Part shown: one piece after another, positions 8,707 to 53,445 of the stretch
Layout: each line of letters starts with the position of its first letter
Numbering within the stretch: the first letter of the stretch is position 1
NCBI RefSeq assembly: GCF_008001235.1
Contig: NZ_CP040751.1
Span: 3,289,501-3,353,500 of the forward strand
Direction of reading: 5' to 3'
Length of the DNA stretch: 64,000 bases
Source of the DNA: Salidesulfovibrio onnuriiensis
GTDB lineage: Bacteria; Desulfobacterota; Desulfovibrionia; Desulfovibrionales; Desulfovibrionaceae
Notes under the pieces: model-generated
Databases searched by the model: none
The model's input: the letters and a program-made list of their open reading frames with translations, nothing else
Told to the model about the DNA's origin: nothing
Program-made: the position numbers and the translations under genes

Positions 8707-8799
8707 GATCCAATATTTCAGATGACTCAGAAGAGTGCGAGCGAAAGATTTCGTCGTGAGGCGAGCCATTCAAGCGAGTCTTACGAATAAAAACAACAG

Positions 8800-8880
8800 C
8801 GATGGCGCAAAACAAAGCCCGGCCTGACGCGTATTAAGACATACGCCAAGGATTGGCTTGGTTGCAGCAACGAACAGATC
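8800..8880. repeat. Degenerate copy of the dispersed palindromic element, leading the tandem array
   Basis: This stretch shares the element's order of parts: GGCGCAAAACAAAGCCCG, a central GCGTATT/ACATACGCC palindrome, then TTGGTTGCAGCAACG and the GTGCGCTT block that opens the tandem units. It resembles the element at 25900 more than the units that follow. Confidence 0.55.
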
Positions 8881-9410
8881 GTGCGCTTTTCAGCGAATTC
8901 TTTCAGGCGGCTCAAAAGCGTGCAGTCACAAGGCGCAAAAAGAAAGCCGGACCCGACGTGTGCAACCACGTACACGAGAAATCGGATTTCTTGCGGCAAC
9001 GCCTGAATGTGCGCTTACAGCAATTCCCTCAGGCGGCTCAAAAGCGTGCAGTCATAAGACGCAAAAAGAAAGCCGAACCCGACATGTACAACCACGTACA
9101 CGAGGGATCGGATTTCTTGCGGTAACGCCTGAATGTGCGCTTACAGCAATTCCCTCAGGCGGCTCAAAAGCGTGCAGTCACAAGGCGCAAAAAGAAAGCC
9201 GGACCCGACGTGTACAACCACGTACACGAGGAATCGGATTTCTTGCGGCAACGCCGTGAATGTGCGCTTTTCAGCAATTCTCTCAGGCGGCTCAAAAGCG
9301 TGCAGTCACAAGGCGCAAAAAGAAAGCCGGACCCGACGTGTACAACCACGTACACGAGGAATCGGATTTCTTGCGGCAACGCCGTGAATGTGCGCTTTTC
9401 AGCCGCCTGA
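8881..9410. repeat. Tandem array: four units of about 127 bp plus a 5' fragment
   Basis: Units start at 8881, 9009, 9135 and 9262, each with GTGCGCTT, and a truncated fifth at 9390. Spacings are 128, 126, 127 and 128. Each unit has CAGGCGGCTCAAAAGCGTGC, a GCGCAAAAAGAAAGCC block, the palindrome ACGTGTACAACCACGTACAC and GGATTTCTTGCGG. Copies differ by scattered substitutions. Open frames through the array change between units and have no start sites, so I do not call a protein. Each unit is one copy of the dispersed element also found at 25900, 32860 and 52850. Confidence 0.85.
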
Positions 9411-9457
9411 CACAACAAGGGGGTGGGGCCGAAGCCACCACCCCCCTGCTGTGTTGG
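9410..9457 (-). terminator. Hairpin after nrdD
   Basis: A long GC-rich inverted repeat (CACAACAAGGGGGTGG against CCACCCCCCTGCTGTG around a GGCCGAAGCC tip) lies about 35 bp past the nrdD stop. On the minus strand it is followed by no clean T run, so it may act as a transcript-end stabiliser. Confidence 0.6.
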
Positions 9458-25819: not shown

Positions 25820-25899
25820 CCTCCGGCAGGCATCGCTGCTGTCCTTATCCGTGAGGCTCGAAGACTCACCAACGACTTAGGCAAGATGGGTTCGGATAC

Positions 25900-25998
25900 G
25901 CGGCGCAAAAGGAAACCAGCCCGCAGCGTATTGGAAATACGTGAGGAGCTGGCTTTCTTGCAGCAACAAAGTAGACGTGCCCTTATCGGTAGCCGTCT
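25900..25998. repeat. Dispersed palindromic element, copy B
   Basis: GGCGCAAAAGGAAACCAGC, a nested stem (CCAGC 25916-25920 with GCTGG 25948-25952; CGTATT 25927-25932 with AATACG 25936-25941), then TTTCTTGCAGCAAC and GACGTGCCCTTATCGGTAGC. It lies between the convergent nagZ and hypC genes. The other copies are at 8800-9410, 32860-32955 and 52850-52938. Confidence 0.8.
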
Positions 25999-26002
25999 CA
26001 AT

Positions 26003-26045
26003 AAACGCAAAGGGCCGGGTGATAAACACCCGGCCCTTTGCGTTT
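26003..26045. terminator. Bidirectional terminator between nagZ and hypC
   Basis: AAACGCAAAGGGCCGGGTG, loop ATAAA and the exact complement: a perfect 19-bp stem whose A and T ends serve both strands. Confidence 0.92.
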
Positions 26046-32812: not shown

Positions 32813-32859
32813 TCGTAGAATCCATACGCTAAACGCATAGCTGTTCATGAAGGCTGGAG

Positions 32860-32955
32860 TGCAAGGAGCCGGAAAAAGTCGGCCCGGAGCGCATACAACA
32901 CTACGTGAGGAGCCGACTTTTCACGGCAACGAAGCAATCGGGCCGTTTTCAACTG
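32860..32955. repeat. Dispersed palindromic element, copy C
   Basis: AAAAAGTCGG (stem arm GTCGG 32878-32882) pairs with CCGACTTTT (32913-32917), enclosing CCCGGAGCGCATAC and TACGTGAGGA, followed by ACGGCAACG and ATCGGGCCG. It lies between two minus-strand genes, UPF0280 and the LUD-domain gene. Confidence 0.7.
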
Positions 32956-32958
32956 CTG

Positions 32959-33612
32959 CTAAAAGCCTAGGTCCTCGTTGACCAGCACCACCTTGATCCT
33001 GCCCTGCGGGAAGGACTTTTCGGTGATGCCCCAGACGTTGCAGATGCGGTCCGGGCTGCTACAGTCGTGACAGATGCCGGTCTTGCGGCACGGAGTCTTC
33101 TTGTCCAGGCGCATGGTGTTCACCGGGGCCACGTAATCCTTGATGCGGTCGAAGGCCTCTTCCAGGCCCGGCACGATCTTGTTGCGCCCCACGACGACAA
33201 CCACGTTCTTCGGCCCGAAGGTGATGGCGGCCACGCGGTTGCCGATCATGTCCAGGTTCACCAGCCAGCCCTCCTCGGTGACGGCGTTGGTGCCGGTGAT
33301 GAACAGGTCCGCGAGCAGGGCCTGCCTGCGGCGCTCCACCATGCCCTCCTTGGAGATGGTTTTGTCGTAGGTGTCGATGACCTCCAGCTCCCTGGAATCC
33401 TTGAGCGCGTCATACAGGCCGGCGGCGACCATGCTCATGGATCCGCCCCAGGAAACCGACCCGGGCGAAAGGGCGGGAATGATGCGGCCAAGCACGATAT
33501 CCTTGGCCGCAGCGGCGCTTTCGGCGATGAAAACCTCGAAATTGTTGTCCTCGAGCGATTCCTTAAGATCGTTGAGCCTGAGTTCCCAGTAGTTGTTGAC
33601 AGGATTTTCCAT
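32959..33612 (-). CDS. LUD-domain protein (lactate utilisation LutC/YkgG-like)
   Basis: 217 residues from the ATG at 33612 with GAGGTG upstream. The pattern PGSVSWGGSMSMVAAGL, then DLFITGTNAVTEEGWLVN and GPKNVVVVVGRNKIV fits LUD (DUF162) proteins. The C-terminus has CRKTGICHDCSSPDRIC, four Cys that may bind metal, as in stand-alone forms. LutA and LutB are not nearby, so a role in lactate oxidation is not shown. Confidence 0.85.
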   Translation of the reverse strand: MENPVNNYWELRLNDLKESLEDNNFEVFIAESAAAAKDIVLGRIIPALSPGSVSWGGSMSMVAAGLYDALKDSRELEVIDTYDKTISKEGMVERRRQALLADLFITGTNAVTEEGWLVNLDMIGNRVAAITFGPKNVVVVVGRNKIVPGLEEAFDRIKDYVAPVNTMRLDKKTPCRKTGICHDCSSPDRICNVWGITEKSFPQGRIKVVLVNEDLGF

Positions 33613-52635: not shown

Positions 52636-52850
52636 GCCTCCGGCGGCCAAAGGGCTAAGCCCTTTGGAAACCTGGCTTGTGGGGGCGTCTTCATCATTCG
52701 CTACGCTCAAGCTGAATCCACCCCCACGGGAAGCTTGAAAAACGAAAACGTCAAACAGCTGCACGGACTTGCTATAATCCCCCTGACGTTCAATTGGGCG
52801 ACTTACAAATTTCCAGGCTGCCAAGAAGGGCGTGGTATACCAGGAGTAAG
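52636..52850. other. Spacer with a GC-rich inverted repeat
   Basis: CCAAAGGGCTAAGCCCTTTGG at about 52648-52668 forms a hairpin after GCCTCCGGCGG. Sequences of this kind recur at gene ends in Desulfovibrio as I know them; only this one copy is clear here. No gene. Confidence 0.4.
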
Positions 52851-52938
52851 AAAAAGGCAGGCCCGACGTGTATTCACACATACACGAGGGTCTGCCCTTT
52901 TTTGAAACGACGCCGTAGACGCGCCCTTATCGGCAGCC
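52850..52938. repeat. Dispersed palindromic element, copy D
   Basis: AAAAAGGCAG (52851-52860) pairs with CTGCCCTTTTTT (52892-52903), enclosing CCCGACGTGTAT and ATACACGAGG, then GACGCGCCCTTATCGGCAGC. The stem plus T run would also terminate transcription from glnS. It reaches to 4 bp from the stop of the convergent queF gene. Confidence 0.8.
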
Positions 52939-52941
52939 TGG

Positions 52942-53445
52942 CTAGGCGCTGTGTCGTCCGCTCTCCCGTTTCCATTCGGAAACAAGCTCGCGCACCTGGT
53001 CGAGCATGGGCGAATCCTGCTTGTAGCGCTCGGCGAACACATGCAGATAGGTCGCCCCGCGCGGGGTGAACAAGCCCTTGACGCGGCACCAGTGCGGGTC
53101 CAGGGCCTCCACGAAATGATCCAGCATGGTGTTGGCGATGGTCTCCATGAACGACTGGTGGTTACGGTAGGCCCCCATATACAGCTTGAAGCTCTTGGAT
53201 TCCACGATGCTCTTGTCCGGAACGTATTCGAAAACGATAGTGGCGAAATCCGGCTGGCCGGTCTTGGGGCACAGGGAGGTGTATTCCGGAAATTCGATGC
53301 TCACCATGTACGGACGGTTCGGATAGTTATTGGGAAAGGCCTCCAGGATCCCGGCATGCGGCCCTTCGGTGGGGTACTCGGTTTCCCCGCCCTGGCCCAG
53401 GGTTTTCAAATGGTCGGTCTTGTCCTGGCTCTTGGTTCTGGTCAT
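52942..53445 (-). CDS. queF: NADPH-dependent 7-cyano-7-deazaguanine reductase QueF
   Basis: 167 residues with AAGGAG before the ATG. QueF reduces preQ0 to preQ1 in queuosine synthesis. It is the short type: catalytic Cys in TSLCPKTGQPDF, NADPH motif ESKSFKLYMGAYRNH and the substrate Glu/His in the C-terminal part. It is divergent from a queuosine-precursor transporter. I found no preQ1 riboswitch between them. Confidence 0.95.
   Translation of the reverse strand: MTRTKSQDKTDHLKTLGQGGETEYPTEGPHAGILEAFPNNYPNRPYMVSIEFPEYTSLCPKTGQPDFATIVFEYVPDKSIVESKSFKLYMGAYRNHQSFMETIANTMLDHFVEALDPHWCRVKGLFTPRGATYLHVFAERYKQDSPMLDQVRELVSEWKRESGRHSA

Follow-up and report, generated by a model that had tools for sequence, protein, structure and literature searches.

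A dispersed hairpin repeat of Salidesulfovibrio onnuriiensis, probably a REP/MITE-like mobile element, lies beside gene 3' ends and is oriented against the replication fork

The sequence at 25900-25998 belongs to a palindromic element that recurs within the 64,000-nucleotide stretch of S. onnuriiensis DNA analysed here (the window), and it raises the question of what such an element is and how its copies came to lie where they do. The first-pass annotation offered two main options, a REP-like repeat and a small structured RNA family, on the grounds of stem arms that differ between four loci and still pair. With a covariance model built from 20 copies, and with folding, the element was found at each of these loci, three of which do lie between convergent genes, as had been claimed, according to gene calls made with our own codon-usage caller rather than a standard annotation. 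The family is not confined to the copies first noted, an outcome that would have spoken against it: the model returned 118 matches in the genome, 91 after hand removal of opposite-strand duplicates and 80 at 40 bits or more, all of them minimum figures because 150 of 911 candidates were scored.

The full element is about 130 nt long and forms one long hairpin with conserved internal loops, so that the spans first annotated, which cover the core (the inner ~95 nt), leave out two further helices as well as the 5' outer arm. One strand of the best window copy (52813-52942; Table 1) folds into one hairpin, from a 10-bp outer stem inward through a small internal loop, a second stem and a short UAC/GUA helix bounded by mismatches, to a loop around GGAGTAA/AAACGAC, for which other copies have GGCGCAA/GCAGCAAC, followed by an A-tract, a G+C stem containing the inner palindrome CGTGTAT...ATACACG, and a T-tract. 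Five window stretches were folded, with z from -9.2 to -0.8, namely 52813-52942 (-9.2), the best copy of the tandem array at 9284-9411 (-8.0), 32835-32965 (-4.0), the named copy (that of the opening locus) extended to 25855-26001 (-1.15) and 8775-8910 around the partial copy (-0.8, no notable fold); the named copy is among the weak ones because its 5' arm is degraded. Judged by its sequence, the core has the form of an intrinsic terminator, a G+C hairpin followed by a T-run, and among copies of at least 60 bits a run of four or more T is present on the top strand in 45 of 67, on the bottom strand in 57 and on both in 42, random 24-mers giving 4.3%. Near-identical copies in the relative G004 measure about 150 nt including a tail, and outside their outer arm lies an extra imperfect arm copy (such as TTTTTCAACGGTCTG) or a CAGAGT...ACTCTG-like hairpin, which makes the mobile unit in G004 probably ~150 nt long. 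Tandem arrays with a spacing of ~150 nt or longer are also seen in other relatives (G005:C24, G017:C1:495245-495981 and G075:C25), in contrast to the 126-128 nt of the window array.

Table 1. Copies of the element and associated features in the window (positions are those of the window)
Feature	Position	Strand	Score or basis
Partial copy, inner part only, heading the array	8804-8874	+	52.7 bits, model 34-104
Tandem array of four full copies, spacing 126-128 nt	8899-9415	+	65.2, 64.5, 96.1, 112.7 bits
Flanks of the array: M17 aminopeptidase gene (+) and anaerobic ribonucleotide reductase gene (-)	8899-9415		own gene calls
Named copy, between GH3 gene (+) and hypC (-); 5' outer arm degraded	25873-26002	+	96.5 bits
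Terminator-like inverted repeat behind hypC, followed by the named copy	26003-26045	.	read directly
Copy with 3' end against stop codon (TAG) of LUD-domain gene (-)	32832-32965	+	82.7 bits
Best window copy; 3' end against stop codon (TAG) of QueF-like gene (-)	52809-52946	+	136.7 bits, z -9.2
Outer stem, 5' arm, pairs with 52932-52941	52813-52822	+	folding
Outer stem, 3' arm	52932-52941	+	folding
Inner core: A-tract, G+C hairpin, T-tract; shape of a two-way intrinsic terminator; roughly the element first annotated	52850-52903	.	fold

Paired changes in the arms do exceed chance, with 74 cells changed on both sides against 21.9 in shuffled alignments and 0 of 500 shuffles as high. With 20 copies aligned on sequence alone, 94.4% of the cells pair compared with 84.0% after shuffling, double changes occur in 18 of 32 pairs, and all five measures lie above all 500 shuffles and every slid register; with 76 of the 80 copies aligned, the 2364 cells include 1992 Watson-Crick, 216 G-T and 63 A-C combinations. 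Fifteen orthologous pairs shared with the relative G120 contain 38 compensated and 10 uncompensated double changes, some 25 double changes being expected if the two sides were independent, and among their one-sided changes 43 preserve the pair and 56 disrupt it, a mix which indicates that pairing is kept up partially, not strictly, after insertion. Selection for a fold, as initially suggested, is consequently plausible but not the sole possible cause, since one-sided breaks stand beside the compensated changes and, by eye, one arm of a few copies resembles a rewrite of the other, an outcome that template switching could yield without any selection. In fact, the copies at ~938980, 1977868 and 1093381 (938980-939115, 1977868-1977987 and ~1093381-1093422) have near-perfect palindromic inner arms from which, by eye, the usual mismatches are gone and which look like a template-switch correction, and the outermost arms vary widely yet are complementary within each copy, in a register picked for complementarity, which inflates the result. 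That the arm covariation arose by copying one arm onto the other is a possibility that we take seriously while doubting it, as the unpaired loop motifs are similar throughout the phylum (by eye), suggesting some role for the folded form.

With this genome included, the model matched 14 of 21 near relatives; in the class it matched 62 of 149 sampled genomes, from 16 of 38 genera, and in the phylum 42 of 247, from 35 of 171 genera, presence being patchy across genera. A blastn search of phages and plasmids with one G004-type query gave no match, and an exact pattern gave 0 matches in viral contigs; two exact-pattern matches in genome contigs were not matched by the model. Likewise, Rfam gave 0 matches at gathering score within the 64-kb window, and 52700-53100 yielded two sub-threshold matches, to animal families and outside the element. 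The alternative of a small structured RNA family has so far gained no support, given the lack of an Rfam match in the window and the position of 39 of the 80 copies between same-strand genes (26 on the plus and 13 on the minus strand).

The copies appear to be mobile. The relative G120, taken as the closest on the basis of few proteins, was compared in 27 loci and 20 stretches, and eight copies of the present genome were aligned to the matching sites, four of which are clearly empty, the model giving no match there (207942, 230833, 1195705 and 3322332, the last being the window copy beside the LUD-domain gene, where the neighbouring genes overlap by TGATG in G120). Two others, 3315373 (the named copy) and 1266903, also lack a model match in G120, but there the gap aligns poorly, and two sites are apparently occupied, 3365638 by a 37.5-bit match and 271057 by eye. 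The native terminator is apparently retained downstream of the inserted copy at 230833 and 1195705, and that in front of the named copy is common to G120, in which a repeat similar to the one at 26003-26045 has no model match behind it. We rejected the idea that insertion split a host palindrome whose halves became the outer arms, as the clear empty sites lack those arms (by eye). Short, non-coding, present in many copies and absent from empty sites, the element corresponds in these respects to a MITE. Of the 27 loci compared, 13 are occupied in both genomes, which points to long retention of copies.

Most copies adjoin the 3' end of a gene. Read on the bottom strand, 47 of the 80 begin where a gene on that strand has its stop codon, the distance lying between -3 and +4 nt in 44, and 43 of these 47 genes are co-directional with the replication fork. 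The abutting stop codons are TAG in 31 cases, TAA in 10 and TGA in 6, against a background of 103, 67 and 70 (n=240; raw counts). The word TAG alone was rejected as the target, for intergenic TAG outnumbers TAG stops 4.7-fold (575 against 122), yet 30 of the 31 copies near a TAG are at stops. Among the remaining copies 11 follow a hairpin, as detected by a simple finder, and 22 follow neither; the finder was positive at 36 of 274 control positions versus 11 of these 33 copies, a moderate enrichment. At the opposite end of the element a gene ends within 10 nt of the model match in 2 of the 80 copies. Convergent gene pairs flank 38 copies and divergent pairs 2, compared with 19 and 33 of 137 background gaps of at least 100 nt. 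In the relatives, a quick test found stop-abutting copies in 12/20 cases in G064, 8/24 in G004, 3/10 in G052 and 1/12 in G085 (flanks taken for 20 of 54, 24 of 36, 10 of 14 and 12 of 12 copies, respectively), and several of the rest follow hairpins by eye, most clearly in G004. At 258467-258737 and 2234520-2234821, two copies of opposite orientation lie close together between convergent genes.

The orientation of the copies switches sign at dnaA (568,965), and 20 of 24 GC-skew samples agree in sign with an origin at dnaA and a terminus opposite to it, the other four having values near zero. With respect to this origin, 73 of 80 copies have their top strand directed against the replication fork (p ~6e-15), with 34 minus and 3 plus copies on the rightward replichore and 39 plus and 4 minus on the leftward, or 63 of 68 when copies less than 2 kb apart are merged. 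The strand on which a junction reads as stop codon or hairpin followed by the element is, in those 73 of 80, the lagging-strand template, and the polarity holds for 11/11 copies behind hairpins and for 19/22 of the remaining non-stop copies. Gene orientation was rejected as its source, genes being far less biased (96 with the fork and 126 against, n=222, in 20 sampled stretches; 147 and 121, n=268, in the element loci). Summed over twelve relatives with a located dnaA, 174 of 258 copies are oriented as in this genome, very unevenly: the polarity is strong in G064 (43/54), G085 (11/12), G052 (12/14) and G004 (27/36), G006 has 19/26, G058 3/3, G017 7/9 and G002 10/15, but G001 has 13/22 and G144 6/10, and there is no such polarity in G117 (3/9) and G073 (20/48). 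In these relatives origins were placed from dnaA alone and genome sizes rounded, the dnaA assignment of G073 is doubtful, and the copy lists, from which opposite-strand duplicates were left out, comprise matches of at least 41 bits in one set and 54 of the 98 matches in G064. In G064 the best-fitting origin, 2.925 Mb, is next to dnaA at 2.936 Mb. A second gene with a DnaA C-terminal domain is found at 3163670-3163864, far from the origin and beside the element at 3163371-3163506, and a second DnaA match above cut-off was obtained in all twelve relatives searched except G073.

The copies are thus dispersed, form one hairpin with covarying arms, are missing from empty sites, abut stop codons or hairpins and face the fork in this genome. 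We lean towards regarding them as a REP/MITE-like, non-autonomous, non-coding mobile repeat that has probably been inserted at the replication fork beside gene 3' ends. Its spread would be helped by a protein encoded elsewhere, as for REPs or MITEs; insertion would proceed through a single-stranded intermediate whose folded form may be RNA or single-stranded DNA; and an inserted copy would then decay slowly, with pairing partly kept and with two-way termination by the A-tract/hairpin/T-tract core as a possible by-product. Several points weigh against this reading, namely the uneven polarity between genomes, the dependence of the hairpin junctions on a simple finder that is also positive at controls, the long retention of shared copies, the identity of the better-folding strand, flank duplications no commoner than chance in this genome, G064 and G085, and the failure to find a mobiliser in searches for Y1 in this genome and for parent insertion sequence ends among 289 sequences. 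More tentatively, and as a conjecture that we think unlikely, short mobile repeats free of RAYT may throughout the phylum enter mainly where replication and transcription are co-directional, at gene 3' ends (stop codon or terminator) and by way of folded single-stranded RNA or DNA, in which case the copies would preserve a lasting trace of which way the fork runs and where mRNA 3' ends form.

The copies may instead be kept by selection as 3'-UTR elements or two-way terminators or insulators, with pairing selected accordingly. The T-runs on both strands of the core, the frequent convergent and rare divergent gaps, the covarying arms and the loci shared with G120 agree with such a role, which we nonetheless judge rather unlikely: native terminators persist beside copies, the orthologous pairs contain many one-sided breaks, and polarity is not predicted by it and is found also in copies without an abutting stop codon.

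Of the two strands, the top one gives the more stable fold in 62/80 copies here, 24/24 in G004, 16/20 in G064 and 11/12 in G085, and in 13/13 single copies from 13 genomes of the phylum, one of which is a family member. The covariance model picks the orientation itself, hence a check with a sequence motif, which 54 of the 80 copies carry solely on the top strand and 0 solely on the bottom strand, the top strand being more stable in 44 of the 54; of the 13 phylum copies, 10 are anchored by the motif, two lack it and in one it lies solely on the other strand. An excess of G-T over A-C was rejected as evidence of strand, for it comes from 6 of the 32 pairs (161 vs 9), the other 26 giving 55 vs 54, and the strand argument accordingly rests on fold energies. 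The better-folding strand is not the lagging-strand template, and a simple scheme of the IS200/IS605 type, in which the folded lagging template is mobile, therefore fits poorly. The better fold of the top strand would agree with insertion through RNA, in which a top-strand RNA would be joined to, or prime from, mRNA 3' ends (left by cleavage at stop codons or by terminators) and its cDNA anneal to the lagging template. Junctions on the sense strand of mostly co-directional genes, at possible sites of mRNA 3' ends, would follow from this route, as would the rarity of gene ends at the opposite end of the element and the share of TAG among abutting stops. Some A-site nucleases prefer UAG. Insertion at two junctions is not explained in detail by the RNA route, which we hold to be quite improbable.

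Regarding the target site, copies flanked by two hairpin copies make up 7 of 24 in G004 and 2 of 10 in G052, in which a third case is a tandem element; at a 1% threshold, flank repeats amount to 7/24 in G004, 3/10 in G052, 1/63 in this genome, 0/20 in G064 and 0/12 in G085, and the flank duplications are not above chance in the last three. Repeats of 4 nt flank 13 of 24 copies in G004 compared with 32% for swapped flanks and are near chance in this genome, G064, G085 and G052; at some G004 junctions the repeats, CTAG for example, are 4-5 bp long. These repeats and the hairpin-flanked copies favour an origin as MITEs derived from a DDE insertion sequence with terminator hairpins as its target, as is reported for IS1272 of the IS1182 family in passages of PMC4923244, and polarity might then result from hairpins exposed on the lagging template. 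We consider this origin unlikely, as IS1272 is described there as making blunt deletions with no target duplication and here hairpins are duplicated, the short repeats exceed chance weakly in G004 and not elsewhere, and a search of 289 sequences for a parent insertion sequence with G004-like ends 700-2600 bp apart gave one pair, which consists of two element copies. By eye, the open frames between closely spaced copies at two loci contain no mobile gene.

A partner of the RAYT kind was rejected as the mobiliser in this genome, where Y1_Tnp (PF01797, E<=0.001) has 0 matches, as it has in G001-G004, G006, G008 and G013, all of which bear copies; as an extant partner here it is largely refuted. 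That the element is a classical REP or REPIN moved by such a transposase is very improbable in our view, even though it is extragenic, palindromic and close to stop codons as REPs are (sections of PMC12306157 and PMC3733652), and Y1 matches do occur in six relatives that bear copies (G005, with 145 model matches, G007, G010, G011, G016 and G017), since the same-genus G007, G010 and G012 encode Y1 transposases yet have 1, 1 and 0 model matches, and the element shows no invariant GTAG or CGTC tag and is 130 nt, not 20-40, in length. The REP-like option of the first-pass annotation holds as regards dispersal in many copies, extragenic position, palindromic form, proximity to stop codons and empty sites in a relative; that annotation did not notice the fork polarity or the junctions with stop codons and terminators.

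Fork orientation and empty sites make fork entry, strand and partner of such repeats testable, the copies would, if insertion at the fork is confirmed, be natural indicators of the direction of the fork, and the covariance model can help to annotate such repeats, which number in the tens per genome in some of the bacteria studied here. Among known systems, group IIC introns insert behind terminator hairpins, and the element shares hairpin junctions with them, but the window contains no Rfam match and hence no intron signature. For IS608 and ISDra2, targeting of the lagging-strand template is described in PMC6006769, a feature in which the element would be like IS200/IS605, except that this genome has no Y1 transposase. 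Insertion sequences and MITEs of the IS1272/IS1182 family insert at terminator hairpins, which they cut bluntly and without duplication according to passages of PMC4923244, unlike the element, whose hairpin is duplicated in some G004 and G052 copies. The BRE of Betaproteobacteria, as described in sections of PMC3110155, is a ~90-bp, usually intergenic repeat found in several genera and in tandem clusters, and is reported there not to be co-oriented with the fork, in contrast to the present element. Geobacter, a delta-proteobacterial genus, has multicopy intergenic palindromic families that are alike by description, and no polarity is mentioned for them in passages of PMC2700814 and PMC2996986. 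Closest in their setting are the REP, BIME and REPIN sequences that accompany RAYT in E. coli and Pseudomonas, likewise dispersed extragenic palindromes between convergent or same-strand genes, and the element shares with them its many extragenic copies near gene 3' ends. REPs and REPINs are defined, in PMC3733652, by a 20-40 bp palindrome with an unpaired GTAG or CGTC tag at one end; the element differs in its ~130 nt and several helices, in having no such tag (the 5' junction on the bottom strand is variable), in a host genome with no Y1 and in its strong fork orientation, for which no report on REPs was found in the open literature searched. Nor did the open papers searched describe, for repeats of this kind, polarity together with so sharp a tie to gene 3' ends. 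Proximity to stop codons is itself already known for REPs, some of which lie within 15-20 nt of a stop codon (parts of PMC12306157, PMC3733652 and PMC3116915), and it is sharper in the present element, in a host genome that has no recognisable RAYT.
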